A stretch of 36,725 nucleotides of DNA from Armatimonadota bacterium (GCA_017993055.1 JAGONM010000034.1:1-36725); one strand, 5' to 3'. Positions 1 to 19,160 are shown, numbered from the stretch's first letter. Made by a program: numbers and translations. The notes: generated from the letters alone by a model not told the origin.

Positions 1-3000
1 CCGCATGAGCACCTCATCCTTCCCGTCGGGCCGGTCCTCAATATCCAGGTCCGCGGTCCAACGGCTCGAGACGTCCAGGTCAGGATTGTAGCGGCTGAGA
101 TAGATGTCGGTACTCTTGTGATATTGAGAGTACGCTGAGTAGACTACATCCAGCACCTGCTTCGGGTTGCCGCTCCTCGTGTAGGCCGTTCTGGCGATGA
201 TGGACGGCTCCGCAGCCGAGACGAGACCGCGCGGGAGCGAGAGCCTGGCATCGTTCGACCAGGAGTCCCGCTCGCCCACCTGATACAGGTTCCGATCATA
301 GGGGCTCATGTTGTAGTATATGCGCCACTCATTGTTGTTCCCGCCGTACCAGAAACTCCACAGCGTCGGGCCGCCGATGTTGGCGTAGACGCCGCGTACC
401 CCGTACTTCGGCATCGTCCAGTCCTTGGTCGTCGAGTACGCCTGTCCGATTGGATCACCGTTCGGGTCGAGCGGCCAGTAGAAGACCCTGTGCTGCTGAG
501 CCTTGGTATCCGTCACCGGGTTGTGCCGGAACGCCTCTCCACCGAAGAACAGCCATGCCTGACCGTTCGCCGGATTGCGGGCGATAGAAGGGCTGTTGAA
601 CTTGGCCGAGTTGCGCTGCACCTGCCCCGGTCCCGCGTCAAAGAACGTGGCGAGGTCGCCGGGGGCCGGTATCGGAGTGTCACCGGTCGGCGACCACCAC
701 TGCGTGTAGCCGGGTTGGGCGAGCGCCCAGGAGTTGTTGTCGAGCCTCATCGAGGACTTGTACAGGTACCAGGGATCGCCGGGCGCCGGAGCGTTGCCCG
801 CGCCGCCGCCGCCGCCCGTCACCGAACCTCGACGGGAACTCGACCAGTACATGTGCAGGCTGTAGTCGGGACCCATATACACGGCGGGCGAGACGTCGCC
901 GACCGAGAAACTAGGATCCGGCAGATCAACCTGAGGGAGCGCACCCGGCATGAAACCGTCCGTCATGCGGTTCTCAGTGACAGTCAGCTTCACCTGCATC
1001 AGCGGGTTGCCGACGGCCTCCCCGGGGTCGTACACGCCGCTGTTGTTGGCATCCTCGAAGAGCGTGATCGAACGAGAGTACGTGCCAGTAGGCGTACCGA
1101 CCGGTACGGCGACGCTGAAGAACGGCAGAGGCGGCGGCTCCAGGGGAGCGAAGCCGGCCGTCGTGTAGAGCCGCTTCGGCATGTCCGGCAGACGAAGCAC
1201 AGTCGGCGACTCACCCACCCTCGGCTTGTGGAACGTGCGCGACGTCAGACCCATGATCGGAGGAAGATTCGTCAGGGCGGCGGTCAGGAACCGGTTGTCC
1301 AGCGCGCTCGTGATCGCCGCGGCAGGCACGTATGCCCCGTAGGACACGAGGTTGTTTCCGCTAGGGTAAATGCTGCCCTCCGCCGTGTCGCTGAACAGGT
1401 CGAAGTTGTACGACGGACCGGCCGACGGATTGACTCTCTTGGCCATCTTGAGGTTCAGCATGTTGACGTTGCCCTGGTTGTACGCGGTAAACGTCTTGAA
1501 CCAGGGATCGAACACCCCGGGAGTATCCGAGCCACCGAGACGAAGCTTAGCGTTGTCGCCGAGCGTCGGCAGGAACAGATTGGGCGACACTCCGCCGGAC
1601 TCGGTCAAGCCGAAGCCGTGAGGGACCGCGCCGATGTCGTATGTCTTCTCACCGACCTCGACCCGATAGTCCGCCGGCACGTGCGCCTGCGCGTAGAACT
1701 CGCGGTACGCCTCGGACCTCGCGCCGCTCACGCTCTGCTGAACGAGTTGCGAAGAGCCGAGCTGACCCGAGCGGTTCAGGCGTCCGTCCCCGTTGGAGTC
1801 TATGAACGTGTACACCCTGCCCGTGTAACCCGATGCTCGCAGTGAGTCCACCGTAGCGGGCATGATGAACGGCATGTTCGGCGGCTGGAACCTCGGCACG
1901 GCGATCACCTGACCCACCGGGTTCTGACCGACCGGCCAGGGGTCGTCGGTGGCGGGAACGGTGAGAGCGCCTCCGAATCGAATCTCCACGTCCTCCTGCG
2001 TCGGATCGAGGCGGCTCTCCGCCATCGCGTAGCTCAACTGGCGCGAGCGGATGTCAGGATAGTCGAGGCTGCCGTTCGGCCCGACGAGAGGAGGCAGGGG
2101 CTTCTCCCAAGGCAGTGCAGTGCTGATCCCGTTGCTGCGCCAGATCTGCGCGTCGCCGCCCTGCCAGTCGAGATCGCTGCGCTCTATCCTGAAGCGCGAG
2201 ATGTTGTTTCCCGTGAGGCTCAGGAGGCTGCGGTCGCAGGCAACGAACCTGCGCTCGTCGGAGTTGGTACCGTGCGCAACTACGCCCGACCGCAGCCACG
2301 GCATGATCTGACGGCGGTTTCCGTTGTCGTGCACCACGGAGCCGAAGTTACTGGCATCGCGGGTAGTCGCGGCGCTCGAGTTCACGCCCACATACCAGGG
2401 CCCGTCGAGCCCGCTCGGGTCCACGCATATCAGGGCGAGCGGGTTGTTGATCGAGACGCGCTGAGGAAGGTACTTGGTGCGGTCGTATATCGTGCCGAGT
2501 ACCGGGTCCTGAGTCGTCGGAATCGGGTGCTCCGGCGCGACACACTCGGCCGCCTTGCCGCCCCGGTTGACGCTGTCGGACTTGGTGCTGGGCAGTTCCT
2601 GCACGCTGAGTGTAATCCGGCTTCCCGGCGATTGAGTGTTGCTACTCGAAGACGTGCCGAGCACATACGCGTACTTCGTGAAAAAGACCGGTCTTCCCGC
2701 CGCTGAGTCCCATATCGAACCCTTGTCGGTCATCGTAAGCGTGGTAGACTGATCGCTCTGGTCTCCCGGGCCGCGGCTCCTGATCGAGAGCCTCAGCGTG
2801 CTGTCGGTGGACGCGACGAACTTGCTGCCTCGACTGCCGGCGCCGCTCGACAACCATTTAGTCTCGTCATCGGTCGAGTCGGGATCGTTGGGGTCCAGGC
2901 AGTTCCACGCGATGACGTATGCCGTCTCGCCCCATTCGTAGTAGTACGGCGCATTGTGGCTGTGCCCGGGCTGGTGGCCGGGATTGTAGTCCTTTTCCGC

Positions 3001-5592
3001 GCGAGCGAGCTTGTGAAGATCACCGTCGGGGATAGTGACCCCGTCCTTGATAGAGTCGTACTGCTCCTTCGCGAAGATATCCAACTCGACGACCGACTGG
3101 ACGTCGCTGTCGGAGTTCTCGGGAGTCGGCGGCCCGTCGGGCAGCTGTTGGTAGTTCCACTCCTCGAATCCGTCGGCACCGCTGCCCGCGCGCGTCGAGA
3201 ACGCCCATGTGACGCCGGACATGTCGCCGACGTACATCCTGCCCTCCGCCAGCGCAGGCGACGAGGTCACCGCCCCCAGCAGAGCGTGAGACCAGTGCTT
3301 GTTGCCGGTCCGAAGGTCAATGCCGTGCAGGTAGCCGCTCTGGCTTCCGACGAAGGCCATCGGAATGTTCTCGCCCGGGATCATCGCCCCGGCAGGGCTC
3401 GAGTAGATCGGATTCCCGAGATCGGGGAACTCCGTCCACTTCGCATGGCCGTCGGCCGGGTCGAGTGCGAGCAGGGCGCCGTCCGACGAGCCTATCGCCA
3501 GCGTGCCGATGCTGTCGAATATGAGCGGCGAGGAGTAGAGGAAAGACCCCCTCGCCTCTTCCCCCGCATCAGGGTAAATCCACTGAAGAGCGCCGGTCGC
3601 CTTCGACAGACAGATCACGCGCCCGACGTAGGTGTCGTCGGTGACAAACATCGGCGGGATGTTCGCATCACTGCCGACGCCGACGTACAGGCTGCTCCCG
3701 CGCACGGCGATCGTGCTGGACACCTCGCCGAGAACTTGGAAGTTGCCGTCGGAGTCCGGCACGGTCTTGCTCGGGTAAACCCAGTTCTCGATGCCGGTCG
3801 CCGCGCTGACAGAGTAGACGTGCCCGTCAGTCGAACCTATGAAGATCGAGCTGCCGTCGAGGGTCGGCGACGCGTATATGGCGCCGATCGGGTTGGCATC
3901 CAGCGTGGGGTAGACCCAGACCGGGTCGGGATCGCCGACTTTGAAGCACCAGAGCCTCCCGCCGGTACCACCGATGTAGATTCTGGAGCCGTCGCTGCTG
4001 AGTGCCGGAGAGGACCAGTCGAACGATCCGAGCCCGGACAGCACGACCTTGACGGCGTCTGCGGCAACATAGCGAGTGGTCGTTCCTCCGGCCACGCTGC
4101 TCACGTTCGAGAGCTTGACCGTCGTGTTGCCCGCGCCCGTTCCTGACGCGCCCACGTCATAAGTGCCAAGAAGTATCCAGCGGCCGCCACTCCTCTGGTC
4201 GCCGGTCGCGGCATAGTCGGTCCCGCCCACCGATATGGTGTACCGCGCATCCGGCACCTGCGGCTCGGTCTGGCTCGAGGGCGGCACCCAGGCGTAGAAA
4301 GAGTACTTGCCCTGCATGCCGATATCGAAGCTCCATGCGGCGAAGGTCTCGCTCCCGGAAGAGGTCACGGCCGTCGTCCGCAGGAAGTCGTCGCCCTGGC
4401 GTCCGGAACCCAGGATGGGTGTCCAGCTAGCGGGCGCGGTCGGCTCATCGAGGTAGCCGGGGCCCTGCCAGACGATACGAGCGCTATCCTGCACGCTACC
4501 AGGAACCGTCGTAAGAACGTAGATCTGGCCGTCGAGCGCGGGGCAGTACGCGACCTCTGCGTTGTTGTATGTGCCGATGAGCGGCGAGGAAGAGAAACCA
4601 CCAGCCACCCAGTTGTCCGTGTTGAACGGGAAGACCCATTTCTGCAGGCCGCGCTCGTCTGCGCCGCCCGTGGTGAGATCATCCTCGGCCGCTATGCCGT
4701 AGACCGCGCCGACCCGCACCGAGCCCGACTGTATGGTGGACGACTCGTAGAGGACGTTGCCGTCTTCATCCCGCACGACATTGCCCCACTCATCCACCAT
4801 CGGCGACGTCGCGTTGACGATCGGCAACCGGCGGTTCTCCAGAATGGAGGTCACAACCAGGTCATTTCGTCGGTCTGCGGGATCCTCCGTCCCTGGAGCG
4901 AACGCCGGCGAACCGATCACGGCGCCGAGGTCCTGCTCAAGCATGACGGCGTCCGCGACGACGATACCGTTCGCGCCGGACGTGGTCAGTTCAACGACTA
5001 CATACTGATCGTCGCGGACCATGAACGGGCTCGACGAGAGGATGACCCAGTTGCCGCCGGATGTCTGGTCTATACGAAACGATGCCGAGGAGTCCTCCGT
5101 CCCGCTGTCGTTCATGATCCTGACACGGTAGAGCGCGTTGGTCGCATGCTTCGGTTGGGACGCGCCGGTATGTGAGGGGAACCAGACGTAGACGTAGTAC
5201 GCCACCGTCTGCGACCTCTGGGTAGTGAGAGGGAAGGTCCAGGTCGCCGTGCCGGAATCCGAGGCCAATGAGTAGAGGAAGTTGCCGCCATAGGCGTTGG
5301 GCGACACGACCGAATCCGCGGGGACCCATGTGCCCACCGCATTGAAGTTCGCCTCGTTCTTCCCGCTCGGAGGATAGTCGTTGTCCACCGGCTCGACATC
5401 AGGCTCGGGATACGGGAACACCCAGATCGGCACCGGCCGGGAAGACAGCAAGGCGTTGGTATCGGACAAACCCGTCCGGGCCACGTCGTGCCGATACATC
5501 GGCCATTTCGTGGCACCCTGGGCCAGAACGGTCCCCAAAGCCGCGAAGACCAGTATGGAAATCAGCGCACAGGCCAATACTCTAGGTTTCAT
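1..5592 (-). CDS. Giant secreted PQQ-like beta-propeller protein with two golvesin-like domains (C-terminus beyond window)
   Basis: The frame is open from an ATG at 5592 to the window edge, giving at least 1864 residues with no stop. An SD (GAGGT) lies 8 bases before the ATG. A Sec signal peptide (MKPR, then a hydrophobic core ending near LAQGA) is followed by the PQQ-protein opening WPMYRHDVARTG. Residues about 100-210 and 400-510 look like two golvesin-C/xanthan-lyase type carbohydrate-binding domains, ending in IVVADAVMLEQ and YVAADAVKVV. Residues about 515-810 hold PQQ_2-type propeller blades (IYIGGTGGRLWCF, IFIGSTDGHVYSV, LAIGSSDGALLALD, YVGDMSGVTWAF). Further on are EF-hand-like loops DSNGDGRLN (about 1264) and DANNSGVYDPGE (about 1516). 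The last 600 residues match no family I know. Catalysis is not expected, since such propellers usually bind partners. As the last gene after three pilin-like genes and another propeller, it is probably exported with them. A PilY1-like role is inferred. Confidence 0.9.
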   Translation of the reverse strand, partial: MKPRVLACALISILVFAALGTVLAQGATKWPMYRHDVARTGLSDTNALLSSRPVPIWVFPYPEPDVEPVDNDYPPSGKNEANFNAVGTWVPADSVVSPNAYGGNFLYSLASDSGTATWTFPLTTQRSQTVAYYVYVWFPSHTGASQPKHATNALYRVRIMNDSGTEDSSASFRIDQTSGGNWVILSSSPFMVRDDQYVVVELTTSGANGIVVADAVMLEQDLGAVIGSPAFAPGTEDPADRRNDLVVTSILENRRLPIVNATSPMVDEWGNVVRDEDGNVLYESSTIQSGSVRVGAVYGIAAEDDLTTGGADERGLQKWVFPFNTDNWVAGGFSSSPLIGTYNNAEVAYCPALDGQIYVLTTVPGSVQDSARIVWQGPGYLDEPTAPASWTPILGSGRQGDDFLRTTAVTSSGSETFAAWSFDIGMQGKYSFYAWVPPSSQTEPQVPDARYTISVGGTDYAATGDQRSGGRWILLGTYDVGASGTGAGNTTVKLSNVSSVAGGTTTRYVAADAVKVVLSGLGSFDWSSPALSSDGSRIYIGGTGGRLWCFKVGDPDPVWVYPTLDANPIGAIYASPTLDGSSIFIGSTDGHVYSVSAATGIENWVYPSKTVPDSDGNFQVLGEVSSTIAVRGSSLYVGVGSDANIPPMFVTDDTYVGRVICLSKATGALQWIYPDAGEEARGSFLYSSPLIFDSIGTLAIGSSDGALLALDPADGHAKWTEFPDLGNPIYSSPAGAMIPGENIPMAFVGSQSGYLHGIDLRTGNKHWSHALLGAVTSSPALAEGRMYVGDMSGVTWAFSTRAGSGADGFEEWNYQQLPDGPPTPENSDSDVQSVVELDIFAKEQYDSIKDGVTIPDGDLHKLARAEKDYNPGHQPGHSHNAPYYYEWGETAYVIAWNCLDPNDPDSTDDETKWLSSGAGSRGSKFVASTDSTLRLSIRSRGPGDQSDQSTTLTMTDKGSIWDSAAGRPVFFTKYAYVLGTSSSSNTQSPGSRITLSVQELPSTKSDSVNRGGKAAECVAPEHPIPTTQDPVLGTIYDRTKYLPQRVSINNPLALICVDPSGLDGPWYVGVNSSAATTRDASNFGSVVHDNGNRRQIMPWLRSGVVAHGTNSDERRFVACDRSLLSLTGNNISRFRIERSDLDWQGGDAQIWRSNGISTALPWEKPLPPLVGPNGSLDYPDIRSRQLSYAMAESRLDPTQEDVEIRFGGALTVPATDDPWPVGQNPVGQVIAVPRFQPPNMPFIMPATVDSLRASGYTGRVYTFIDSNGDGRLNRSGQLGSSQLVQQSVSGARSEAYREFYAQAHVPADYRVEVGEKTYDIGAVPHGFGLTESGGVSPNLFLPTLGDNAKLRLGGSDTPGVFDPWFKTFTAYNQGNVNMLNLKMAKRVNPSAGPSYNFDLFSDTAEGSIYPSGNNLVSYGAYVPAAAITSALDNRFLTAALTNLPPIMGLTSRTFHKPRVGESPTVLRLPDMPKRLYTTAGFAPLEPPPLPFFSVAVPVGTPTGTYSRSITLFEDANNSGVYDPGEAVGNPLMQVKLTVTENRMTDGFMPGALPQVDLPDPSFSVGDVSPAVYMGPDYSLHMYWSSSRRGSVTGGGGGAGNAPAPGDPWYLYKSSMRLDNNSWALAQPGYTQWWSPTGDTPIPAPGDLATFFDAGPGQVQRNSAKFNSPSIARNPANGQAWLFFGGEAFRHNPVTDTKAQQHRVFYWPLDPNGDPIGQAYSTTKDWTMPKYGVRGVYANIGGPTLWSFWYGGNNNEWRIYYNMSPYDRNLYQVGERDSWSNDARLSLPRGLVSAAEPSIIARTAYTRSGNPKQVLDVVYSAYSQYHKSTDIYLSRYNPDLDVSSRWTADLDIEDRPDGKDEVLMR

Positions 5593-5629
5593 ATCTGTAT
5601 ACCTCGAACCGACAGGATGCCCGACCGGG

Positions 5630-8600
5630 CTACTGGAGCAGCCGCTCGGCGCTGGACGGCTGCTCGAGCGGATAGCTGCCCTTCCCGACGTCTACGCCGG
5701 CGCCCGGCCACACTATCTTCGAGAAATCGGCAAGTAGTTCGAACACCTCTCCCTGGGCGGCAAACGACTTCCGGACGGTCCCAAGGCTCGGCGCCCCGTT
5801 TGTGACGAGAACGTTGCCGCTCGGTAGCAGTTGGGCGGAAGATATCACCAGCGGCTTCTCAGGGTGATTTCGGGCAAGGTGGATCCGCGGATTGGGGTGC
5901 CCGAGGCTCCCTGGGTTGACCGTCTGCAGGTTCGCGTTGTAGAAGTGCGTGACGTACAGCCCGTTCGCGTCGCCGATGACATCCACGAACATCCCGCCGG
6001 CCTTGAACTCCCGCGAGAAGAAGGTCGGATTGACCAGCCGCGTCAAACCCTGAGTACCGTCAGGCGTCTCGACGAAGCGCCTCACGCCGCTGTTCGCAAT
6101 CCGCCCGGTGGCATCATCAATCGTGACGATGGCCCCGCCGGTCGTCTCCAGCCTGGAGGACTCGGGAACATAGTTGTCCACGACACAAATCACTTCGGTG
6201 CCGGTGCCGTCCGGCTTCGGGTACCTTCGCGCGCTGACGTACCTGTAGCGCTTGCCCTGCTCGAGGGTATGCGTCGCCCAGCGCAGTTCCTGGCGGCTGT
6301 AGCGGCCGGTAGAGGGGTCGTATGTCGCCTCCACCTCGACCACCCGGTAGTTCCCGCTGTCCGCGATCAGGAACCGGTATGCCGTCGAACCGGCGACCGG
6401 ACCCGCGACCGGCCAGACCCACGCGTCGGTCGGCGTGCTGAGCCTCAAGGGCGAACCGGGAGGCAGAACCCCCAGCGGATCTCTGAACTCGGAGACCTCG
6501 CACAGGACGTTGCCTGCGCGGTCTATCATGGCGACCCGGTTGTTCCCCGTGTCTGCGAACAGGATGTTGCTCGATCCCGCGCGACGCGCTACCGACGGTC
6601 GGTTGATAGGCGTCTTGGTCGCTCCGAAGACCGGGGTCGCCGTCGCATCGAGCCGCGTGACGGAGAACGAAGTGGTGCTGTCGCACGACCAAACCACCCG
6701 GCCGGAGGAATCCATCTCGAGCAGTCGGCGGTTGTCGGCCACCAGAGTGAGCGCGTTGTGCAGGACGGCGATGCCTTCGGCGGAACTGACCACAATCGAG
6801 CCGTGCGCGCCGGCGACCGTCGAGAGTATCGGCTGGCCGCCGCCGAGAGCAGGCTGATCCGGATCCGGCCACAACCAGTGGATGCCGTCGTTCACGGGCA
6901 CTACCGCGTGCCGATCGGTCGTCTGGGATATGCGCTGGACGTTGACAGCGTGCAGGCGGCCCGCCGCGGTCCCGAAGTACAATATGTTGCCCATCAGCAT
7001 GGGGGAGGAAGTGATCGTAGCGCCGTCAATCTTGAGCGCCCAGGCCAGGTTGTTCCAGGAATCGTCGAACTGGGGCGTAGTCGTGAACGCCGGATGAATC
7101 TGCTCGATGCGAGTGCCGGGCCCGGAGCCTTCGGTCGGCGGGTAGAACCGCACGATCAGGTCCTGCGACGCGCTCAGCGGATCGAGGAAGTTCTCGATCG
7201 TGATGCGGCCCGCATCGTAGTCAACCTTGAAGGCGACGCGCCGACGGGAGGTGTCCGTGCCTTCCGCCGCTCCGCTGACGGCCCTCGGCTCACTGCCCGG
7301 GTTCATGCTGTCGTACTGCAGAACCTCGACCGGCCGTCTCGAGTCTATGGGGCCGCCTACGCTGATCCGGAATGTGGGATCGGCATCGAACGCGAGGATA
7401 TACGCCGTGCCCCCGGCATTGACCGCGAAGTAGGCCATGTCGTTCCCTACCGCGGCCGACCCGACGGCCACGGCGCTGCCGCCGAGCAGACTCCTCGGGC
7501 CCGGATCGCCCATGTACCAGCGCCACTTGGTCGTGAGCCCCCAGCCGTCCTCCATGACCGCGTAGAACGAGCCGTTCTCGGTCGCGTAGTACAGCGTGTC
7601 GTTCGGCGCGATAGCCGGAGTGTCGGTCACGCCGAGTCCCGGAGGACTCGTGCCGGTGGTCGCCACGTTCTTGACGTCTATACGCTGGCGGTAGTTCGGC
7701 GGGTAGGCCGTGTTGCTCGAATCAATCTCGTAATCGGCGATCACGGAAGAACCGCTCGGCACGTTAGTCGTCAGCACGAACGTTCCGGGCTGTTTGACGG
7801 TCACGCTCGCATCGGCCACTTCGACCAAGGTCCCGTCCGGCTGGCTGATGTAGAGTTGGAACGTGGACGGGTCGCTCTTGACGGCCATCGTCTGATATCG
7901 GCGTACGCGGTACTCGTTCGCGCCAGTCGCTCGAGTGAGCACCTCGTTGAAGACCCTTATCGGGAAGCTGTAGACGCATCCGTTCACGCTGCCGACCCGA
8001 CCGCGCGCCGCCATGTAGACCAACTGGTCCACCGACCCGGTGATCGGGTTTCGGAAGTACCCGACCGCCGGAGCGGTCAGCGTCGGCGGGAGGTTGAGCG
8101 GACTCGCGGGCCACTTCCACTGCGTGTTGTCGAGCAGGTTCTTCCCGCGAAGGCATCCGAGAGCGTCCCCGGCATAGACCACTCCGTCGAAGTAGGTCGG
8201 GGCGGGAATGCCGATAATCCCGTTCGCGGGGTTGTCAGCGGCGTATCCGTCCACGGTCATGATCGGGTTGCTGCCGGTGAGAGGCGCCCCCGTCGCCGCA
8301 TTGAAAGCCAGTATGCCTCCGCCCTGATTCGCCACGAAGACAGCGGGCAGCGCGGCCCCACCGCCGACCGGCACGTATGCGGCCGTCGGCGAGGATGACG
8401 GCCCCCCGCAGTTCGCTTCCCATATCCTGTCGTAAGGTGCGCCGCTCGCGTAGTCCGGCAGACCATCGTCAGGGTTGCCGTCGCCATCCACGTCCTGAGC
8501 GGGAGACAGATCAAACGCCCGCAGAACGCCGCGACCGTCCACGTAGAAGACCATGTCGTTCAGGATCGCGGGCGACGAACCGGTGGGGATATTTCCGCCG

Positions 8601-9670
8601 CCGTCGTAGTACCACTTGAGGGCGAGAGGAGCCCCGACCTCATCATAGGAGAAGCCGCTCCGGCGCGCGTTCTTGTGGAAAGTGGTGTGCTCGCCACCCC
8701 AGGAGGCGATATTCACCGCCATCTTGAGGTCCTCGGCCGGAGCAACTGCGACCCGTTCGGTCGGGCAGTAAGTTCCGTTCCGGACCGTCGCGCCGCCGTA
8801 GTCAAAGGTCGAGGCGAACGCACTTATCGCGTAGCCGACGTTCTCAGCGCACGCAACCACATGTCCGCTGCCGTACTGAGCCGCGGCAACGACCGGCGCC
8901 GAGGTATTCGCGTTAACGCCGATGATCGTCTGGAAGTACCGGTCTCCACCGGCAGAGAACGCGACGGTCCTGGCACCGACCAGATACATACCCGACCCAT
9001 TCAGCTCGCTCGCGCTGGTGCCGAGCTTCGTCATCTCATCCCAAGAGAGAGTGTACGGACGCCGCGCCAGGGGGTGCATCGGATTGGGCGCGCCGGCCCA
9101 TGCCGCGCCGCCACCGCTGCTGAAGGCGAAGTCGCAGGTGAAGAAGTTCCTCAGACCGCCCACACCTCCGGGCGCACTCTCGATCCAGAGCACGCCGCCC
9201 GAATCCACCAGTTTGCGGAGTTTCTCCCTCTGCAGGCGACCTAGATCGTACGTGCCGGATAGAGCCACGAAGAGAACGTCGAACTGGGACAGCTCGGCAA
9301 CGCCGGCGTCAATCTTGACTTCCCAGTAGCATCCCATCTCCTTCGTGATGCCGTCGCCCTCGGCATAGGGCGGACCGCCAGCGCCGGCCCATCGCGCCAT
9401 GATCTCGCCGGTCACGCGGGAGGACGCGAGCGGATTCACAAACTCCCAACCCTGCGGCTTGAGATCCATCCTGTTGTTCAGAACGTGGAAGACATAAGGA
9501 GCCGCGGGGCGCACCGTATAGAGTCCGCCTGCGTCCGGGAAGATCAGGACGCCCGCCTTGATCTCCTTGCGCTGGCTCGCGTATGTAAAACTGGCGCAGT
9601 CGGCAAAGCCCGCCGCAAAGACGGTCAGAAGAATCGCGAGTATCAGAAAGCTTAGTGTCCGGTTGCTCAT
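5630..9670 (-). CDS. Large secreted PQQ/NHL beta-propeller protein with N-terminal DUF4159-like domain
   Basis: This 1346-residue protein starts at an ATG with a GGGGTGG SD 8 bases upstream. The N-terminus is a Sec signal peptide (SNRTLSFLILAILLTVFAAG). Residues about 40-300 resemble DUF4159/glutamine-amidotransferase-like folds: a 'FDVLFVALSG' strand, then 'LRKLVDSGGVLWIES'. From about residue 340 come PQQ-type blades introduced by HTTFHKNARRSGFSYD. One blade carries the calcium-loop-like DVDGDGNPDDGLPD at about 392. NHL-like repeats follow at about 1030-1115 (ILFADTGNNRVAMID, FLIADSGNYRVVEVE). Between them, about residues 813-845, is a beta module also seen in the upstream pilin-like proteins. 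The gene lies 51 bases after the PilX-like gene and 37 bases before the second propeller, so one transcript is likely. It is probably an extracellular scaffold or adhesin. Kinship to PilY1 is by context and fold only. Confidence 0.9.
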   Translation of the reverse strand: MSNRTLSFLILAILLTVFAAGFADCASFTYASQRKEIKAGVLIFPDAGGLYTVRPAAPYVFHVLNNRMDLKPQGWEFVNPLASSRVTGEIMARWAGAGGPPYAEGDGITKEMGCYWEVKIDAGVAELSQFDVLFVALSGTYDLGRLQREKLRKLVDSGGVLWIESAPGGVGGLRNFFTCDFAFSSGGGAAWAGAPNPMHPLARRPYTLSWDEMTKLGTSASELNGSGMYLVGARTVAFSAGGDRYFQTIIGVNANTSAPVVAAAQYGSGHVVACAENVGYAISAFASTFDYGGATVRNGTYCPTERVAVAPAEDLKMAVNIASWGGEHTTFHKNARRSGFSYDEVGAPLALKWYYDGGGNIPTGSSPAILNDMVFYVDGRGVLRAFDLSPAQDVDGDGNPDDGLPDYASGAPYDRIWEANCGGPSSSPTAAYVPVGGGAALPAVFVANQGGGILAFNAATGAPLTGSNPIMTVDGYAADNPANGIIGIPAPTYFDGVVYAGDALGCLRGKNLLDNTQWKWPASPLNLPPTLTAPAVGYFRNPITGSVDQLVYMAARGRVGSVNGCVYSFPIRVFNEVLTRATGANEYRVRRYQTMAVKSDPSTFQLYISQPDGTLVEVADASVTVKQPGTFVLTTNVPSGSSVIADYEIDSSNTAYPPNYRQRIDVKNVATTGTSPPGLGVTDTPAIAPNDTLYYATENGSFYAVMEDGWGLTTKWRWYMGDPGPRSLLGGSAVAVGSAAVGNDMAYFAVNAGGTAYILAFDADPTFRISVGGPIDSRRPVEVLQYDSMNPGSEPRAVSGAAEGTDTSRRRVAFKVDYDAGRITIENFLDPLSASQDLIVRFYPPTEGSGPGTRIEQIHPAFTTTPQFDDSWNNLAWALKIDGATITSSPMLMGNILYFGTAAGRLHAVNVQRISQTTDRHAVVPVNDGIHWLWPDPDQPALGGGQPILSTVAGAHGSIVVSSAEGIAVLHNALTLVADNRRLLEMDSSGRVVWSCDSTTSFSVTRLDATATPVFGATKTPINRPSVARRAGSSNILFADTGNNRVAMIDRAGNVLCEVSEFRDPLGVLPPGSPLRLSTPTDAWVWPVAGPVAGSTAYRFLIADSGNYRVVEVEATYDPSTGRYSRQELRWATHTLEQGKRYRYVSARRYPKPDGTGTEVICVVDNYVPESSRLETTGGAIVTIDDATGRIANSGVRRFVETPDGTQGLTRLVNPTFFSREFKAGGMFVDVIGDANGLYVTHFYNANLQTVNPGSLGHPNPRIHLARNHPEKPLVISSAQLLPSGNVLVTNGAPSLGTVRKSFAAQGEVFELLADFSKIVWPGAGVDVGKGSYPLEQPSSAERLLQ

Positions 9671-9721
9671 AGTTAACCACCCCGGCTCAGCCGGAAATCC
9701 CGGCGAGAGTCACTCGTCTGG

Positions 9722-12382
9722 CTAGGTCGGCCGTCCGATGTAGATCGTCTGCGGGCTGACAGGGAGCCTCGGCGCGATCGGCAGCGGCCTGCGGAACTCA
9801 TCTCGCCTGAGCGCGTCGGTCGTACCCGGGAACAACGGATGCGAGAGCAGTTCGTCATACACGATGGTCAGCCCCTTGCGCCTCTCGTCGTTCGGCGTAT
9901 TCGGGTCGAGCGGCGGACGATAGGCCTCGGTCAGCTCGCCCGAACTGCCGTGCTCGATGGGAATCCATCCCCACTTGCCCATCCATGCGCTGGAATCGCC
10001 CACGGAGGCAGCCAAGTTCTCGCTGATCGCTCCGGAGATGACGATGCGGACATCCGGCGGCTGGCCGTAGAAAGGCCAGCGGCTATCCGTCGGGCCGTCT
10101 GGAAGGCGACGAACCATGTTCGGGGCGTCAGCTCGGTTACCTCTCAGATCCTCGGGGTCGGGATTGACCCACTCGCCCGGGATCACGAAGAACGACTTGT
10201 TCTGCGCGTACATCATCGCCTCGACGCGAACATCCATCGGCTGGACGATAGCCCGCGAGACATAGTAGTCCTGAGCGCCGGAAGGAAGCCTCAGGCTCTG
10301 GTCCAGCTGGAAGCCTATCCGGTTCTCGACTCCGGGTAGGACTCTGAAATCATACTCCCCGGCGGAAATCGGCCAGAGACCGAACACCTGGTGCTCCCAG
10401 CTCTCATACTGCTGGCTCGAAAACTTGGCAGGCCACGCCGCCGCATCACCCAGAGGGTAGATGTATCGCATCGGAACGCTCGCCGCCCATCCCGCGAGGT
10501 TGAACTGATAGAAGGAGTAGTAAGGCGACCCGCTCAACTGCGCGTCGGTCGGCGGCCAGTTGACCAGCATGTTCATGTAGGTCGCGCCGCCCGGCGCGGC
10601 GGTATGCCGGACCAGCAGTTCGACGCGCCGATTGTACGCGGCGGGATGCTCTCCGAACGCGAAAGTGAACCAGAAGGACGAGGTAGGCGACACATCGAAG
10701 AACCCCGATCCCGGACCGGGATACGGGACCTCCTTCATCGGGCCGAAGAACTGCGTGGTGTTCACGCAAACGTAGTCCTCGGCGAGCAGGGCCGCCGAAC
10801 AATCGGGGGCGATCTCACCGGTCTGCGGATTGCGGTATTTCAGGATGTTCCCGTCCACGTATATCGTCCCGCCGGATACGACCGTCATCTGCTTCCCGGG
10901 AGCGAGCATCCCCTTGATACGGATGTTGCCCTCCGCGAAAAGAACGCCGTTCTTCGGATACGGCATCGTCATCTGCTCGCCGGTCTCGGACATCGGGGCG
11001 CCGTTCCTGTCGAGCCAGATGTACCTGTCACGCTCGTTCCTCGTGATCAAGATGTCGGGACCGTCTATGACGCCGTCACCGTCCCTGTCGGCTCCATCGG
11101 AATCATACGGCAGCAGCACGACGGTTATGCCGGGAGGATCGTAGTACGGGCCGTGCCAGTATTGAGACTCCCCGGGCTGCGTCCAGTCGGAGCGCAGGGT
11201 GTATCCGACGCTCTCTTCCTGAATGTCGCGAGTGTTGTCAATGTATATTCCGTCGCCCCATCCGTAGTAGCCGGTGTTGTACCAGTTGCCCTGAGGGTCA
11301 CGACGCCACTCGCCGGAGTTGCGGGTGAGCTCGCGATAGCGGCTCAGCCTTCCGCTGACACCGACCGCGTCGAGGTTCGGCGGCTCGAGGCGGGTGATCT
11401 CCCTCGGCCGGCCGAGCGCATCCTCGCCGGGATTCCCGTCGCGATACCAGCCGATCTCGGGATCGGCGGGGTTCACGGGAGCGGTAGTTACTCCCGGGGC
11501 CGTGTTGAAGTCCGCCAGCACGCTTTCCAGGGCCGGCTCGCCGTTGACATAGACCTCGCCAGGGCTTCCGTTGGCGGAGTCCTCATGTCGGATGTCGCCG
11601 GCAACTTCGACGCCCTGCCCCCTCGCCGGATCGAGCCAGATGAGGTTGCGGCCCTGCCAGATGAGATCGCCGTTCACGCGGATCGGCGCGCCGAGGACGT
11701 GGTTCGCGCCTTGCTCGCCGAAGGACGTTACGAACTCCGGGACGCCGAGAGTGGTAGCCGCCGGGCGTCGGTCTTTGTTCGTAACGAAACGGGCGTAGTC
11801 TGTTATCGCTATCGGCTTGTAAGCGACGAGTTCCTTCCGAAGCCGAATCGGCTGCCTGTTCTGGAAGGTCGTCGGATCGTTAGGATCGACAACCCCCATT
11901 CGCCCGATGGATTCCACCTTGATGAACTTAGACATCGGGTCACCCGGCCTCGGATCGTACGTGATCCGCAGGAGGAAGCGGCCCTTGCCGTAGGAATAGC
12001 GACTGAATCCCTCCATGAGCCACGTATAGTCCGGGTCGTCCGTGCTGGGCCGCTGCGAGGCGTTGGAAGCGGGGCCACCGTTCTTCTCGATCACAACCGC
12101 CGGGTAATCAGGCACGGGACGCCAATCGGCGCCTTCCTCACTGTAGGTGAGCTGGTGGTCAGCATATCGGATGCCTGCCTCGGCCAGGTACTGCACGCTG
12201 AGGACCTCTCCGCTCCTCTGCGCCCTGAGGATGTTACGACCGACGATGCCGATGAAGAGCCCGCCTATGAAGACGAGCAGAAACATGACGGAGAGCGCAA
12301 GTATCAGCGACTGCCCCGCCTGACTTCGCAATACCGACGCCAGCCTTGTCCGCGGCCCTTGAATCCGTGTGTGCATATCCAT
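9722..12382 (-). CDS. Very large PilX-like minor pilin/pilus-associated protein
   Basis: The protein has 886-887 residues and an N-terminal basic stretch followed by a single pilin-like transmembrane helix (AGQSLILALSVMFLLVFIGG). Next comes an amphipathic run with 'SVQYLAEAGIRYADHQL', which matches the PilX_N pattern of Gram-negative pilus assembly proteins. There is no Glu at +5, as is normal for PilX. Classical PilX proteins are about 170-200 residues, so about 700 residues of globular C-terminus are extra. That part includes a calcium-loop-like stretch DRDGDGVIDGPD at about residues 431-442. The start overlaps the PilW-like stop in TGATG, with a GTG option 3 bases upstream at 12385; both imply translational coupling. 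A short segment near residue 480-500 (MLAPGKQMTVVSGGTIYVDG) resembles beta-helix text found in PilX-like proteins of deep-branching phyla. The exact function is unknown. Confidence 0.85.
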   Translation of the reverse strand: MDMHTRIQGPRTRLASVLRSQAGQSLILALSVMFLLVFIGGLFIGIVGRNILRAQRSGEVLSVQYLAEAGIRYADHQLTYSEEGADWRPVPDYPAVVIEKNGGPASNASQRPSTDDPDYTWLMEGFSRYSYGKGRFLLRITYDPRPGDPMSKFIKVESIGRMGVVDPNDPTTFQNRQPIRLRKELVAYKPIAITDYARFVTNKDRRPAATTLGVPEFVTSFGEQGANHVLGAPIRVNGDLIWQGRNLIWLDPARGQGVEVAGDIRHEDSANGSPGEVYVNGEPALESVLADFNTAPGVTTAPVNPADPEIGWYRDGNPGEDALGRPREITRLEPPNLDAVGVSGRLSRYRELTRNSGEWRRDPQGNWYNTGYYGWGDGIYIDNTRDIQEESVGYTLRSDWTQPGESQYWHGPYYDPPGITVVLLPYDSDGADRDGDGVIDGPDILITRNERDRYIWLDRNGAPMSETGEQMTMPYPKNGVLFAEGNIRIKGMLAPGKQMTVVSGGTIYVDGNILKYRNPQTGEIAPDCSAALLAEDYVCVNTTQFFGPMKEVPYPGPGSGFFDVSPTSSFWFTFAFGEHPAAYNRRVELLVRHTAAPGGATYMNMLVNWPPTDAQLSGSPYYSFYQFNLAGWAASVPMRYIYPLGDAAAWPAKFSSQQYESWEHQVFGLWPISAGEYDFRVLPGVENRIGFQLDQSLRLPSGAQDYYVSRAIVQPMDVRVEAMMYAQNKSFFVIPGEWVNPDPEDLRGNRADAPNMVRRLPDGPTDSRWPFYGQPPDVRIVISGAISENLAASVGDSSAWMGKWGWIPIEHGSSGELTEAYRPPLDPNTPNDERRKGLTIVYDELLSHPLFPGTTDALRRDEFRRPLPIAPRLPVSPQTIYIGRPT

Positions 12383-14190
12383 CACTCGGCTATGTTCCTC
12401 AGTGTGACCTTGTTGGTAAGCTGCACGACCTGCGGCTTGCCGGTGATCGGGTCGTAGATGCGTATACCCATCATGACCGTCATCAGGCTCTTGGTCACGT
12501 AGCTCGCACGCAGGCTGTCGCCCTTCTTGTTGTTCTGCACCTCGTAGTAGACGAGGACGTTATTCGTGCCGCCGGGAAGTTCCATGCCGGAGCCCGGCTG
12601 GTGCGTCTGGTACGAATGGAAGAACAGACATGCCAGACCCGGCTTGTCGAGGGGCGCGCCGGACGAGTCAACCGCCTGGTAGTTCACATCGAGTTGATAC
12701 TGATTGAGTCCCGGTTCATAGAGATAGCTCGGGATGCGCTGATACCTCGTCGCGCGGCCGTAGTTGGCACCGGGAGACGCATCCGGGGCGACGACCCGCT
12801 CCGAACCGGGCACGACCGTTGCGTTGGCGATCGGCGCGAGCCCGACGTCCGGGTCGTTGATCCACAGGGACCGGTAGCGGTCCTTGTAGCTCGTGAACGC
12901 CTCGTATCGGGCGTTGATGTCGTCCGTACCGGCGACCATGCTGACCGCCATCCGTCCCATCGAACTGCTTGCATCAAGATCCACGACAGGGAACGAGAAG
13001 TTGACCGCGCCCTTCGTATCATCAATCGTGAACGCCACATCCGGCCTCTGATTGGGGAAGCGCCCTACCCCGTACGGCCGACCGGGATAGTTCGCCCTCG
13101 GGTCGGTCTTCGTGTAGATGTAATCGGTTATGTCGAATATCACGCTGCCGCCGGGATCGCGCAGGACGCAGGCCTGGCCGGGCTTTCTCTCGGCCTTGAA
13201 AGTAACCGTACCGCCGTTTGGAAGCTTGCGGAAGAGCGTCACCTCAATCGGGGTCGTCCATTGTCCGTAACTCGCCTTGTATACCGTCGGCAGCAGATCG
13301 CCGTGCTCGGGGTCATCGCCGGATTCGACGGTCGGCACCAGGGGATCGTTGTAGATGGCGGTCGGCATGAACTTGACCGTGGGCGTGACTATCGGGCTAC
13401 CGCCGACCCCGTACTTCGCCTCACCGTTCTCCATCTCCTGAACGATCAGATCGGTGTGTTCGAGCGTAACCATGGGACGGCTGATCTTCCTCCAGGCGGC
13501 GCTGTGCGGCCCGTAGAAGAAGTTCGGATCGCTAAGATTGGCGCCGGCGTCGTCGGAGTTGCCGAACAGGTTGTCGTCGTAGGGGCTGAACTCCACCCGA
13601 TACAGAACGAACATGTTGTCCTCACCGGTTGCGAACCTGTTCGTGTAGCCGTTGGAGTAGGGCTTGCTCGGGTCGCGCAGGCCGATGAAATACCGCACGA
13701 TATACTTGTCCGCGGCGAGCGGCTGGGCGGGACGAAGCTGAAGTGGAGCCCCACAGACCGGGCAGAGCGGCGTCGCCTCGTCGAGTTCCGGATGCCCGGG
13801 ATCGTGACGGGCGAAGTCCCTCGGGTCGCCGTCCGAATGGATCGAGGACGGGGCGGTGCAATATGCACGGATGCGCGGCAGGACGATGTCTACCTTGGCA
13901 TATAGCACCGGGACAGGAACAACGTTCCCGGCGGCGTCGGGCATGGGGAAGTTGATCGGCTGATTCGTATTGTCGTACACGAACATCGCGTCGGCGAGGT
14001 CGCGGCTGACCTGCTCGAGCGCGAATCGGGCGTTGTCCTGCGCGCGCACCATGATCTCGGCGCTGCGTGTAAAGCCGAAGGTGCGGATGACCGGGCCGAA
14101 CACAAGCCCCAGGATCAGGATGGTCAGCGCGAGGACCACCATGATCTCGACCAGCGTGAACCCGTTTCTATTGTTCGTGGTGTATCTCAT
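12382..14190 (-). CDS. Large PilW-like pseudopilin with type III prepilin signal
   Basis: This protein of about 602 residues has a clear class III signal: NRNG|FTLVEIMVVLALTILILG, with Gly at -1, Phe at +1 and Glu at +5. It is processed by the prepilin peptidase encoded nearby. After the helix, 'RAQDNARFALEQVSRDLADAMF' is the typical PilW/GspJ amphipathic continuation. Ordinary PilW is about 250-350 residues, so this one is roughly doubled. A CPVC knuckle (ATPLCPVCGAPLQL, about residues 145-155) is unusual for a pilin. Residues about 386-419 contain a 'D-G-V-F' beta module shared with its neighbours. I chose the ATG at 14190; a TTG at 14199 is an alternative, and neither has a strong SD. The gene starts just after the PilV-like stop (14209), and its own stop overlaps the PilX-like start. 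Confidence 0.9.
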   Translation of the reverse strand: MRYTTNNRNGFTLVEIMVVLALTILILGLVFGPVIRTFGFTRSAEIMVRAQDNARFALEQVSRDLADAMFVYDNTNQPINFPMPDAAGNVVPVPVLYAKVDIVLPRIRAYCTAPSSIHSDGDPRDFARHDPGHPELDEATPLCPVCGAPLQLRPAQPLAADKYIVRYFIGLRDPSKPYSNGYTNRFATGEDNMFVLYRVEFSPYDDNLFGNSDDAGANLSDPNFFYGPHSAAWRKISRPMVTLEHTDLIVQEMENGEAKYGVGGSPIVTPTVKFMPTAIYNDPLVPTVESGDDPEHGDLLPTVYKASYGQWTTPIEVTLFRKLPNGGTVTFKAERKPGQACVLRDPGGSVIFDITDYIYTKTDPRANYPGRPYGVGRFPNQRPDVAFTIDDTKGAVNFSFPVVDLDASSSMGRMAVSMVAGTDDINARYEAFTSYKDRYRSLWINDPDVGLAPIANATVVPGSERVVAPDASPGANYGRATRYQRIPSYLYEPGLNQYQLDVNYQAVDSSGAPLDKPGLACLFFHSYQTHQPGSGMELPGGTNNVLVYYEVQNNKKGDSLRASYVTKSLMTVMMGIRIYDPITGKPQVVQLTNKVTLRNIAE

Positions 14191-14208
14191 AGTTATCAAA
14201 CCGTACGA

Positions 14209-16008
14209 TCAGTCCTGAAGGCGCATAAGGTAGGTCTGCAAGTCCACCGATCGCCACCGGCCCGCGTTGAATCCGCGGCCGCCTTCGCGCCAGATGACCC
14301 TGGTACCGACCGATACGCCGTTCACGCGGGTGATGCCCAGGATCTGAACGTCGCCCACGGACACGTTTCGCAGCTTGGCGATACGCTCCCTCGGCTCGAT
14401 ATAGCACGTGCCCTGAAACCCCGTCGCCTCGGAGGTCCTGTAGGTATCGCCCTCGACGGTGAAGACCTCAGCGTTCCCGGCGATGCGGTACGTGTAGTCG
14501 AGGGCGACGCTCATACCCGAGTAGCAGCGCGCGAAGTATATCTTATCGCTGAAGTACTCGACCCCGCCGGCGTCCGAGGTCGGCCCGTACCATTCGCGGT
14601 GGTCGAGCGGCGACGACGAGCCGGCGCTGAAGTTGTAGCTCCTGCGATACGACTCGAAGGCCTTGAAGACCTGCAGAGCCCAGTCGCCCTCGGCGCGGTA
14701 GTATATACGGAAAGTCCGGCCGGCCAAACTCGGATGGAACCTGACGATACCGTCCTTGTAGTTGACGATCATCGCCCACTGGCCGGACCCCATGGAAGAC
14801 TCCTCGTTGAACCATTCGCCGGTCTGTATGTCAATCGCGAGGATGCTAAAATCAAGCCCGGGAGCAAGCCCGGTGTACCGACTGCCGTCAAACTCGACGG
14901 TGGCTGTCTCGCTCGAGGGAGCCGCGCCAGGCACCGCGGCGTTCTTGATGAAGCGGAGAGTCAGCTTGACGCCGAGATCCGCCTCGCTCAGGACGGTGTC
15001 GGGTATCTTTCGGTCCTCGCGAATGATATGCCAGTCGAGAACGTTGTAGTCTATGTAGGCGGTCAGCGGCACCCTGCCCCACTCCGTGAACTCCTCGTAG
15101 CCGTAGCCAGCCGGGTTGAAGCCGACCACGCCCCGCAAAGTGTCGAGCACCTTGTACTGGTAGGGGTTGTCCGGATCCCAAGCCGCCGAGGCGTCTATCT
15201 GCATGAAACTTCGGTGTAGAGTGTCGCTTCCGTTGTCTATGAACATGTACCCGGTTTCGTTCTTGACCGGCGAAGGCGAAGCGGCATTGCCATTCGGTAT
15301 CTCCACGTTGGCAGCGTCCCTGGGAATGAAGACCCTGGCGCTGAGAACCGGCCGCAGTTCGGGACGGCCGCTGACCTGGCTCCAGTAGGAATAGCTGATG
15401 ACGAACTCCCGGTCGTAGTTGGTCGGGCGGACGTGCAGCACGGCGTTGTTGTAGTCAACCGCGTATTCCGAAGAGCTTCTGACAGTCCTGGGGGACTCCG
15501 GCACGGAGCGTCGGCGCATCGGTCCACTGCGAACAGTAATCGAAGTGGTGCCCGCCCACTCGATCGGGCTGAAGTTCACGACGTACATGGACACATCGCC
15601 CCACAGGGGCGTAGTCATCGGTGCAGGTATCCTGGTGGACTCGGCATATATGCGCCGGAACTTGTTCACGTCCGAGTAGTAGCGGGAGTCCGGCGGAGAT
15701 GACATGCCGGAGAGGCCCGGCAGCTCGCCGAGGTCCTCCGGGTTCACGTCAATCAACACTCCACCGTTCACTATATCCCAGCCAAGAATGCCCGCGGGAA
15801 GGTTGGATGTCGAGCCCTTGAGCCGCTCTAGTTCGGCCTGGGCCAGCCGGTTTGCGAGGGTGACGTTCTCACTCTGCTTTACGACGAGGAAACCTGGGGG
15901 GAACATCCTCACGATCACGAGTATACCGACTACGAACACGGCGAGGGCGGCCAATACCTCGACCAGGGACATACCACGATTATCCGAGATGTGCGTCCGC
16001 AGCCTCAT
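14209..16008 (-). CDS. Large PilV-like pseudopilin with type III prepilin signal
   Basis: The product has 599 residues. The signal NRG|MSLVEVLAALAVFVVGILV has Gly at -1, a Met at +1 (as in PilV/GspI) and Glu at +5. It is followed by 'SENVTLANRLAQAELERLKG', the PilV/GspI helix continuation. I start it at the ATG at 16008, which has a GGAG 6 bases upstream, rather than the in-frame TTG at 16020. Normal PilV is about 160-200 residues, and the C-terminal 500 residues here are beta-rich. They contain two copies of a 'VDY..G.V.F.P....F.I.Y' type module, at about residues 180-210 and 411-443. This is the first gene after the terminator that follows the pilin gene, so it opens the minor pilin-propeller unit. 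Its likely place is the pilus tip or the initiation complex. Confidence 0.9.
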   Translation of the reverse strand: MRLRTHISDNRGMSLVEVLAALAVFVVGILVIVRMFPPGFLVVKQSENVTLANRLAQAELERLKGSTSNLPAGILGWDIVNGGVLIDVNPEDLGELPGLSGMSSPPDSRYYSDVNKFRRIYAESTRIPAPMTTPLWGDVSMYVVNFSPIEWAGTTSITVRSGPMRRRSVPESPRTVRSSSEYAVDYNNAVLHVRPTNYDREFVISYSYWSQVSGRPELRPVLSARVFIPRDAANVEIPNGNAASPSPVKNETGYMFIDNGSDTLHRSFMQIDASAAWDPDNPYQYKVLDTLRGVVGFNPAGYGYEEFTEWGRVPLTAYIDYNVLDWHIIREDRKIPDTVLSEADLGVKLTLRFIKNAAVPGAAPSSETATVEFDGSRYTGLAPGLDFSILAIDIQTGEWFNEESSMGSGQWAMIVNYKDGIVRFHPSLAGRTFRIYYRAEGDWALQVFKAFESYRRSYNFSAGSSSPLDHREWYGPTSDAGGVEYFSDKIYFARCYSGMSVALDYTYRIAGNAEVFTVEGDTYRTSEATGFQGTCYIEPRERIAKLRNVSVGDVQILGITRVNGVSVGTRVIWREGGRGFNAGRWRSVDLQTYLMRLQD

Positions 16009-16110
16009 AGACTTCTCCAACAGAGCAGTTGCAGGAATGGAACGCGCCCGATCGCAACGTTCCTACGTTTTCGACTATCCGGAGCCGGGAAATGTTCCTT
16101 GCATAGAAGC

Positions 16111-16152
16111 CAAAACGAGGCAACTGCCGAGCCTGCGGCGGGCAGTTGCCTC
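16111..16152 (-). terminator. Rho-independent terminator after the pilin gene
   Basis: On the minus strand, a perfect 12-bp stem GAGGCAACTGCC / GGCAGTTGCCTC (16152-16141 and 16128-16117) encloses a 12-base loop. It is followed at once by GTTTTG (16116-16111). It lies 25 bases past the pilin stop. This separates the pilB-to-pilin transcript from the minor pilin-propeller genes, or attenuates read-through between them. Confidence 0.85.
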
Positions 16153-16177
16153 AGGGACGTATGAAGTTATGCGGGGA

Positions 16178-16960
16178 TCACGGCTTTGCGTTCACCCACA
16201 CCACGCTCCAGTTCAGGGTTCGCAAGTCGTTGTCGTAGAGCTTTGCCGAAGGCATCGGCTGCACGTGACCGTCGAGGAACAGCACGAGGTCCATGCTGCC
16301 CGACCTGACCTCCGCGTTCTTGTACTCCCTATGGTAGCCACACCATGTGACGACGGTATCCTCAGGCGGCGATTTCCACCTGAGCTGGCGCATGAAGTCC
16401 GGGAATACCTTGGCGAACTGAGCCGCAGTCTGGTTGCCCGGCGGATCGAGCCAGGCCGTCGAGTAGTGGGCCTCCCACTGCCGACTGTTGCGCATGTTCT
16501 GCACATCGTAGGTGCTGAAAGGATACACCTGATATGCCGGATTCGCCGTCCCACGCAAGCCGGGAACCCTACCCTTGAGCGGATCGGCGATGGTCATCAT
16601 GCGCGTGTACTCGGTCATCATCCCGTTCTTGACAGCCATCGGGCAGTAGAGTATCTGCTCAGACTTGATGTACTCGGGATAGAGCGAGACCGCTCGCCCT
16701 CCGTCTACGCCGGGTATGTCCTTGATGTCAACCCCGGCCGCGGGAGACGGGCCCGCAATGAAGTCGGGATACCTGCCCTCGTTCTGCTGGAACATCTTGA
16801 GCGCGGTCCAGACCTGGTGCATGTTGCTGGTACAGCTCGTCTTCTTAGCGTTGTTCCTCGAAGACGCGATCACGGGAAACAGGAATGCGGCCAGCACCCC
16901 GATGATAGCGATAACCGTTAGAAGTTCGATGACGGTGAAGCCGTTTCGTCTCTTAAGCAT
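16178..16960 (-). CDS. Type IV pilin / pseudopilin (DGHV-type)
   Basis: This 260-residue prepilin has the leader MLKRRNG and the mature start FTVIELLTVIAIIGVLAAFL, with Gly at -1 and Glu at +5. The stretch after the helix, SCTSNMHQVWTALKMF, is typical of the pilin-like proteins common in Planctomycetes and Armatimonadota. Those proteins end with a motif like FLDGHVQPM, present here near residue 235. The start at 16960 is set by a GGAGGT 7 bases upstream; an open extension to 17059 would overlap the prepilin peptidase gene and has no comparable SD. The gene is closely linked to pilD and followed by a terminator. It could be the major pilin, or a pseudopilin acting with the downstream minor pilins. 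The sequence alone does not settle which. Confidence 0.92.
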   Translation of the reverse strand: MLKRRNGFTVIELLTVIAIIGVLAAFLFPVIASSRNNAKKTSCTSNMHQVWTALKMFQQNEGRYPDFIAGPSPAAGVDIKDIPGVDGGRAVSLYPEYIKSEQILYCPMAVKNGMMTEYTRMMTIADPLKGRVPGLRGTANPAYQVYPFSTYDVQNMRNSRQWEAHYSTAWLDPPGNQTAAQFAKVFPDFMRQLRWKSPPEDTVVTWCGYHREYKNAEVRSGSMDLVLFLDGHVQPMPSAKLYDNDLRTLNWSVVWVNAKP

Positions 16961-16967
16961 TGCTGGT

Positions 16968-16973
16968 ACCTCC
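16968..16973 (-). promoter_or_regulatory. RBS fixing the pilin start
   Basis: GGAGGT with a 7-base spacer to the ATG at 16960. It supports this start over an upstream in-frame extension. Confidence 0.8.
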
Positions 16974-17024
16974 ATTGTCGAGACGGAATGGGCCGTTTGC
17001 GACCCATGAGTCATATCGGACGGG

Positions 17025-17864: not shown

Positions 17865-17891
17865 TGACGAGTCCGATCTTCCCAGGCTCCG

Positions 17892-19118: not shown

Positions 19119-19122
19119 CGAG

Positions 19123-19131
19123 ATCACCTCC
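19123..19131 (-). promoter_or_regulatory. RBS fixing the pilC start
   Basis: GGAGGTGAT, a near-perfect anti-SD match, placed 4 bases before the ATG at 19118 (7 from the GGAGGT core). It argues against the earlier in-frame ATG at 19154. Confidence 0.8.
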
Positions 19132-19160
19132 GGCCCGGAGTCCTGCCCGGGCATTCTGCG

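Follow-up and report, generated by a model that had tools for sequence, protein, structure and literature searches.

The question raised by this locus is whether five large genes of an Armatimonadota bacterium encode the tip of a type IV pilus, in the way that PilV, PilW, PilX and PilY1 form a tip complex in Pseudomonas and Myxococcus. The stretch that was analysed, called the window here, comprises bases 1-36,725 of contig C34 (40,925 bases in all), reaches one contig end, and belongs to a genome of 3.7 Mb that is 99.6% complete. Its genes run on the minus strand in the order aroE-side genes, pilB, pilT, pilC, pilD, a GspG-type pilin gene, V, W, X, propeller B (propB) and propeller A (propA), and the last five are almost contiguous or share a few bases. 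An earlier note on this stretch had described these five open reading frames (ORFs), in this order and with their signals and sizes, all of which we confirmed, and had read them by the logic of PilV-PilW-PilX-PilY1. That logic is supported by the gene order across the phylum, the type IVa machine context, the minor-pilin N-termini and the loss of Glu5 in X only, and the predicted propeller folds and a calcium-type motif agree with it as well. We conclude, with a probability of about 0.72, that the cassette encodes the tip or priming complex of an Armatimonadota type IVa pilus, in which X is the cap and propB is the functional counterpart of PilY1.

Forty regions across the phylum, and then 74 named loci, were annotated with profiles made from the window genes. 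Orthologs were called from ORFs of at least 60 amino acids (aa) and profile matches, without curated annotation. A scan of the genome contigs with X as a single protein gave no match; the search for X homologues rests on a nine-sequence alignment, alignment A1 being too diverged to yield patterns. The conserved X protein led to relatives that are Armatimonadota records, and the order pilB-pilT-pilC-pilD-pilin-V-W-X-propB recurs in them, from members of the same family through to the most divergent ones. W immediately precedes X in 58 of 59 named loci, and propB is at most three ORFs downstream of X in 60 of the 63 named loci with downstream sequence, which is the place of a PilY1 gene beside pilX. 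Among 201 phylum genomes X was detected in 186 and propB in 157 (135 and 120, respectively, of the 140 good-quality ones). Both were found in 154 genomes, X only in 32, propB only in 3 and neither in 12 (Fisher p = 9e-7, a value that is only indicative because the genomes share ancestry); the figure of 154 was derived by counting G093, G142 and G167 as propB-positive genomes without X. Some of the absences may be due to assembly fragmentation. The median ortholog lengths are 639 residues for V, 628 for W, 928 for X and 1561 for propB. Since the gene order recurs across the phylum, the cassette is beyond chance. The earlier note had taken it for a locally rebuilt operon, which it is not, the pattern being phylum-wide, and had proposed to look for the five genes in related genomes, where they do occur together and in order. 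A scan of 84,980 species for X returned Armatimonadota-type or vaguely named records, and a few that bear the titles Actinomycetota or Propionibacteriaceae.

The N-termini of V and W are those of prepilins by the N_methyl profile, with a cleavage site, a hydrophobic helix and Glu5. W scored above the Pfam cut-off, and V scored just below it in the scan of window proteins and above it in the genome scan. The best NCBIfam matches were PilV for V (1.5e-5) and HpsC for W (1.5e-8). All V (33/33) and W (36/36) orthologs have Glu5 in the mature pilin, and no X ortholog has it (0/37); mature X starts with Gln1 in 37/37, and its N-terminus reads AG^QSLILALSVMF...LAEAGI. PilX and GspK are also without Glu5, and PilX has been placed at the outer end beside PilY1 (PMC7541494). 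X has no confident Pfam match, and a sequence search against the PDB found no relative. The model of X (mean predicted local distance difference test, pLDDT, 84; predicted template modelling score, pTM, 0.86) has a helix at residues 16-81 and strands at 128-190, followed by about 700 residues of beta-rich extension. We read strands 128-190 of the model as a small pilin core. X thus combines the lack of Glu5, the place after PilW and the N-terminal helix of a PilX/GspK-type tip pilin, and the long modelled helix bears out the pilin-like N-terminus for which the earlier note had proposed structure prediction. In Foldseek the whole X model had weak neighbours, mostly carbohydrate-binding jelly rolls of the carbohydrate-binding module (CBM) type at E of about 0.01-0.05; better E-values went to multi-domain enzymes with template modelling (TM) scores near 0.1. 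Because these matches are weak, the carbohydrate-module reading of X is a lead and not a result, and the jelly-roll domain was placed within the modelled X only tentatively, by strand order. Single in-frame stop codons were seen within the X matches of a few genomes (G028, G045, G083, G100 and G160).

Both propeller B and propeller A start, by eye, with a Sec-type signal sequence. PropB is single copy in the window genome and in most genomes. The propB of the window, searched alone, gave no confident Pfam match, and among 31 orthologs DUF4159 was matched in 26, NHL in 15 and PQQ_2 in 12 (best 2.7e-10, 1.6e-5 and 1.4e-9, respectively). Residues 330-1346 were modelled (pLDDT 78) as an almost entirely beta structure, which in Foldseek resembles multi-propeller proteins and BamB (target-normalised TM-score for BamB 0.69); BamB gives the best single-propeller matches, and the Foldseek result is generic for propellers. 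PropB, a secreted protein, is predicted from this model to be a tandem propeller. PilY1 has an EF-hand-like calcium motif, Dx[DN]xDGxxD (PMC8833165). The strict motif is present at one aligned site in 22 of 33 propB proteins, including that of the window, and in 0.45% of shuffled proteins; D401, G403 and D414 are invariant among the orthologs, and the loop falls between strands in the model. Since the motif occurs in other calcium-binding proteins, it supports a similar function and not common descent, and the loop may bind calcium. It is the C-terminal propeller that defines PilY1 proteins, and their N-terminus varies, with a vWFA domain in a third of those compared (PMC13190605). The outline of propB is alike, an N-terminal alpha/beta domain followed by a propeller. 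The most likely explanation is that propB is a functional counterpart of PilY1 with no detectable homology to it. The earlier note had called the parts of the cassette apparently non-homologous to their Pseudomonas equivalents; for V, W and X this did not hold, as they are type IV pilins with enlarged heads, and for the propellers against PilY1 it stands only in the sense that no homology is detectable.

Propeller A of the window matches PQQ_2 (3.5e-20) and Golvesin_C (9.6e-28). Its size had been given as at least 1864 residues, which is right for a fragment at the contig end; full-length relatives have 2.1-3.6 thousand residues. In ten clusters with continuing contigs an ORF of 2,115-3,565 aa comes after propB and is homologous to propeller A, sometimes weakly, and in the closest complete relative this protein has 2156 aa (Golvesin_C 1.4e-32, PQQ_2 6.8e-22). 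Propeller A is the member of the cassette that varies most in sequence. At L165 5302-15999 the ORF in its position has 3,565 residues and no Pfam match at E 0.01.

After propeller A the closest relative carries PilM (1.7e-55), short membrane-anchored proteins, a short STN-domain protein and a secretin (1.6e-38). Three short proteins take the PilN, PilO and PilP positions by position and anatomy, with no Pfam match. Because PilM, the PilN/O/P-like proteins and the secretin come next in this relative, the tip cassette lies inside a complete type IVa pilus locus, of which PilB, PilT, PilC and PilD are in the window and PilM to the secretin in the closest relative. Thus the five-gene unit of the earlier note is right as to its five genes and too small as a unit, with pilB-pilT-pilC-pilD and a pilin gene upstream and, in relatives, pilM to the secretin downstream. 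In the window genome the rest of propeller A and the pilM-to-secretin part fall in an assembly gap. The remainder of propeller A was sought on another contig of the source genome and this was rejected, no matching C-terminal part being found; a pilM-pilQ part of the locus elsewhere in the genome was also rejected, the other PilM matches belonging to a second pilus operon, to a cell-wall cluster (an FtsA-like gene) and to a type II secretion system (T2SS).

Several observations weigh against the tip reading. The PilY1 structure 3HX6 is absent from the 50 best Foldseek matches of propB, and the PilY1 profile PF05567 was unmatched in 31 propB orthologs at E up to 0.1; it was also unmatched in the 201 phylum genomes, a weak negative because no control genome gave a match either. 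PilX_N (PF14341) was undetected in 37 X orthologs at E up to 0.1, and 11 of 33 propB proteins are without the strict calcium motif. In some lineages X occurs without detectable propB, which may be missed in several of the X-only families because X itself is weak there. Moreover, L143 (Armatimonadetes isolate CS1-C002, about 6598-19061) has V-W-X and then pilM, without propellers; the PilM-like gene starts 125 bases after X and is followed by PilN/O/P-like and secretin-like genes, as read by eye. X is short there and the assembly has runs of N inside X and pilM, so the exception is provisional. A lineage of this type means that the propellers are not indispensable everywhere, and if the exception is real they are a removable block. 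This lineage would fit an explanation in which V, W and X alone form the tip with binding domains of their own, and the propellers are co-expressed surface or outer-membrane proteins, BamB-like helpers in secretion or folding; the BamB match of propB and the carbohydrate-module-like jelly rolls among the top structural matches of X point the same way. However, X is immediately followed by propB in almost every genome, and propB is mostly single copy, co-occurs with X, is far larger than BamB and bears the PilY1-type motif, and we regard this explanation as improbable.

It is also conceivable that the cluster makes a T2SS-like pseudopilus, with V, W and X as GspI, GspJ and GspK and both propellers as secreted substrates that are not retained at a tip. 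The PilV-PilW-PilX and GspI-GspJ-GspK positions are equivalent, a published survey put Armatimonadetes systems under T2SS (PMC6668835), and the Golvesin domain and PQQ repeats of propeller A are typical of exported proteins. We consider this unlikely, since PilT scores above cut-off in the cluster, PilM and a secretin are present in relatives, and the same genome has a separate T2SS. This system is one of two further type IV filament loci in the window genome. It lies at C2 58000-77900, with GspE, GspG and GspD above the curated cut-offs and its own GspK just below; because it is separate and has its own GspK, V, W and X are not its pseudopilins. Its GspK-like protein (L177 7552-8709, 385 aa) has a C-terminal ComEA-type helix-hairpin-helix (TIGR00426, 63.7 bits, above cut-off), a region that may hint at DNA handling. 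The other locus is a pilM-N-O-P-Q-B-T-C operon (C1 182000-201900; L161 2011-11672), and no tip cassette was found in the fetched stretch of it, 182000-201900.

If the cassette is the tip complex of a type IVa pilus, V, W and X would enter the fibre by their N-terminal helices, their heads being several times textbook size. X, without Glu5, would most plausibly be outermost, capping the filament, and propB would dock on X. The complex would prime polymerisation of the pilin encoded just upstream, be carried outward as PilB extends the fibre, bind a surface or polymer, and return with PilT. Propeller A may be a second exported tip or surface partner, and its role is the least certain part of this explanation. 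We infer that such a complex forms, that it is located at the tip and that it has a ligand. Since the cassette follows the gene order of retractable-pilus tips elsewhere, it probably builds a larger, phylum-specific adhesive tip. A bolder form of the tip reading, which we put forward tentatively and hold to be rather doubtful, is that Armatimonadota replaced PilY1 independently: a tandem propeller of DUF4159-PQQ-NHL make-up, unrelated to PilY1, would have taken its place on a PilX-type cap and, with a second giant propeller protein, would form a two-adhesin tip of about 600 kDa (the mass summed from the five gene lengths). To our knowledge, a tip of that size would exceed any known tip complex.

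Features of the window, with positions counted from its first base
Feature	Position	Strand	Description
Propeller A (propA), N-terminal part only	1..5592	-	secreted giant; 1864 aa, open at contig end; two Golvesin_C-type domains and PQQ-type repeats
Golvesin_C domain of propeller A, best-scoring, residues 80-219	4936..5355	-	profile match
Propeller B (propB), 1346 aa, secreted	5630..9670	-	DUF4159-like alpha/beta N-terminus, PQQ-type propeller, NHL-type propeller; proposed PilY1 counterpart
DUF4159/ThuA-like N-terminal domain of propeller B, approximate	8801..9562	-	weak in window protein, clear in orthologs
EF-hand-like loop DVDGDGNPD, propeller B residues 393-401	8468..8494	-	fits PilY1 calcium motif
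X, giant minor pilin, PilX/GspK position, 887 aa	9722..12385	-	no Glu5; long N-terminal helix; beta-rich extension, jelly-roll-like part (modelled)
Pilin-like core of X, mature Q25 to about 190	11816..12313	-	helix to 81 and following strands; putative boundary, from modelled secondary structure
W, minor pilin, PilW/GspJ position, 605 aa	12382..14199	-	Glu5 conserved
V, minor pilin, PilV/GspI position, 603 aa (599 from ATG at 16008)	14209..16020	-	Glu5 conserved
Intrinsic terminator between pilin gene and V	16116..16153	-	13-bp stem, TTTT tail; not kept in relatives
GspG/PilA-type pilin, FimU position	16178..16960	-	likely start ATG 16960; ORF open to 17059
pilD, prepilin peptidase	17025..17864	-	profile match
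pilC, platform protein	17892..19154	-	profile match
pilT, retraction ATPase	19161..20327	-	TIGR01420, 509 bits, cut-off 319
pilB, extension ATPase	20386..22182	-	profile match

A terminator had been noted ahead of the cassette, and in the window genome this is borne out by the stem-loop listed above (about 16153-16116), which has a 12-nucleotide loop, and by the 166 nucleotides around it, which fold with z = -3.1. A simple scan missed it because its loop limit is 8. The idea that a terminator is conserved between the pilin gene and V was rejected, as one was found in 5 of 38 relatives against a background of 8%; not being kept in relatives, the stem-loop counts as local. The pilus locus has aromatic-pathway genes on its flanks, with aroE upstream in the window (22275-23159) and, by reading, shikimate kinase, dehydroquinate synthase or chorismate synthase beyond the secretin of some relatives (L143, L179 and L180 flanks). 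These flanks recall pilQ-aroK-aroB of proteobacteria.

What has been described of type IV pilus tips comes mostly from proteobacteria, Myxococcota, Thermus and streptococci. If the tip reading is true, the combination of minor pilins with a propeller predates PilY1 itself or evolves more readily than PilY1 does, and the cassette offers independent families for testing the docking of a tip complex on PilX. A function is thereby also suggested for about 18 kb of genes that keep a strict order and have poor annotation, in a phylum of which few members have been cultured. No description of the cassette was found in the literature on PilY1 or type IV pili in Armatimonadota or Chthonomonas; the consulted part of the Fimbriimonas genome paper names Pil proteins and numerous pseudopilins and no such cassette (PMC4072686).

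Among known systems, the FimU-PilV-PilW-PilX-PilY1 tip complex of Pseudomonas and Myxococcus (PMC7541494, PMC13190605) is like the cassette in the order of pilin, V, W, X and a large secreted propeller protein, in the loss of Glu5 in X only, in a propeller with an EF-hand-like motif and a variable N-terminal alpha/beta domain, and in a machine that contains PilT. It differs in that the Armatimonadota minor pilins have about 500-1160 aa, that propB, unmatched by PF05567, is a tandem propeller that has DUF4159 and NHL parts, that there is a second giant propeller protein, and that the motor genes lie on one side of the cassette and pilM-pilQ on the other. ComZ of Thermus thermophilus is likewise a minor pilin of giant size, its pilin core carrying a large inserted beta domain, and has been argued to fit at the tip only (PMC6561018). 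Unlike here, where V, W and X are all enlarged and two propellers are added, ComZ is one such pilin, with a beta-solenoid and DNA binding. The modular pilins of Streptococcus sanguinis have smaller modules. As far as the consulted parts of the papers on its PilB and PilC go (PMC8179133, PMC9934059), they resemble the present proteins in having an extra adhesive module grafted on a pilin, that of PilC being a glycan-binding lectin, and the structural neighbours of X including jelly rolls like those of carbohydrate modules; the system is monoderm, and those parts mention no propeller partner. Finally, GspI-GspJ-GspK take positions equivalent to V-W-X, and GspK is also without Glu5, whereas T2SS are without PilT and the T2SS of this genome is a separate locus.

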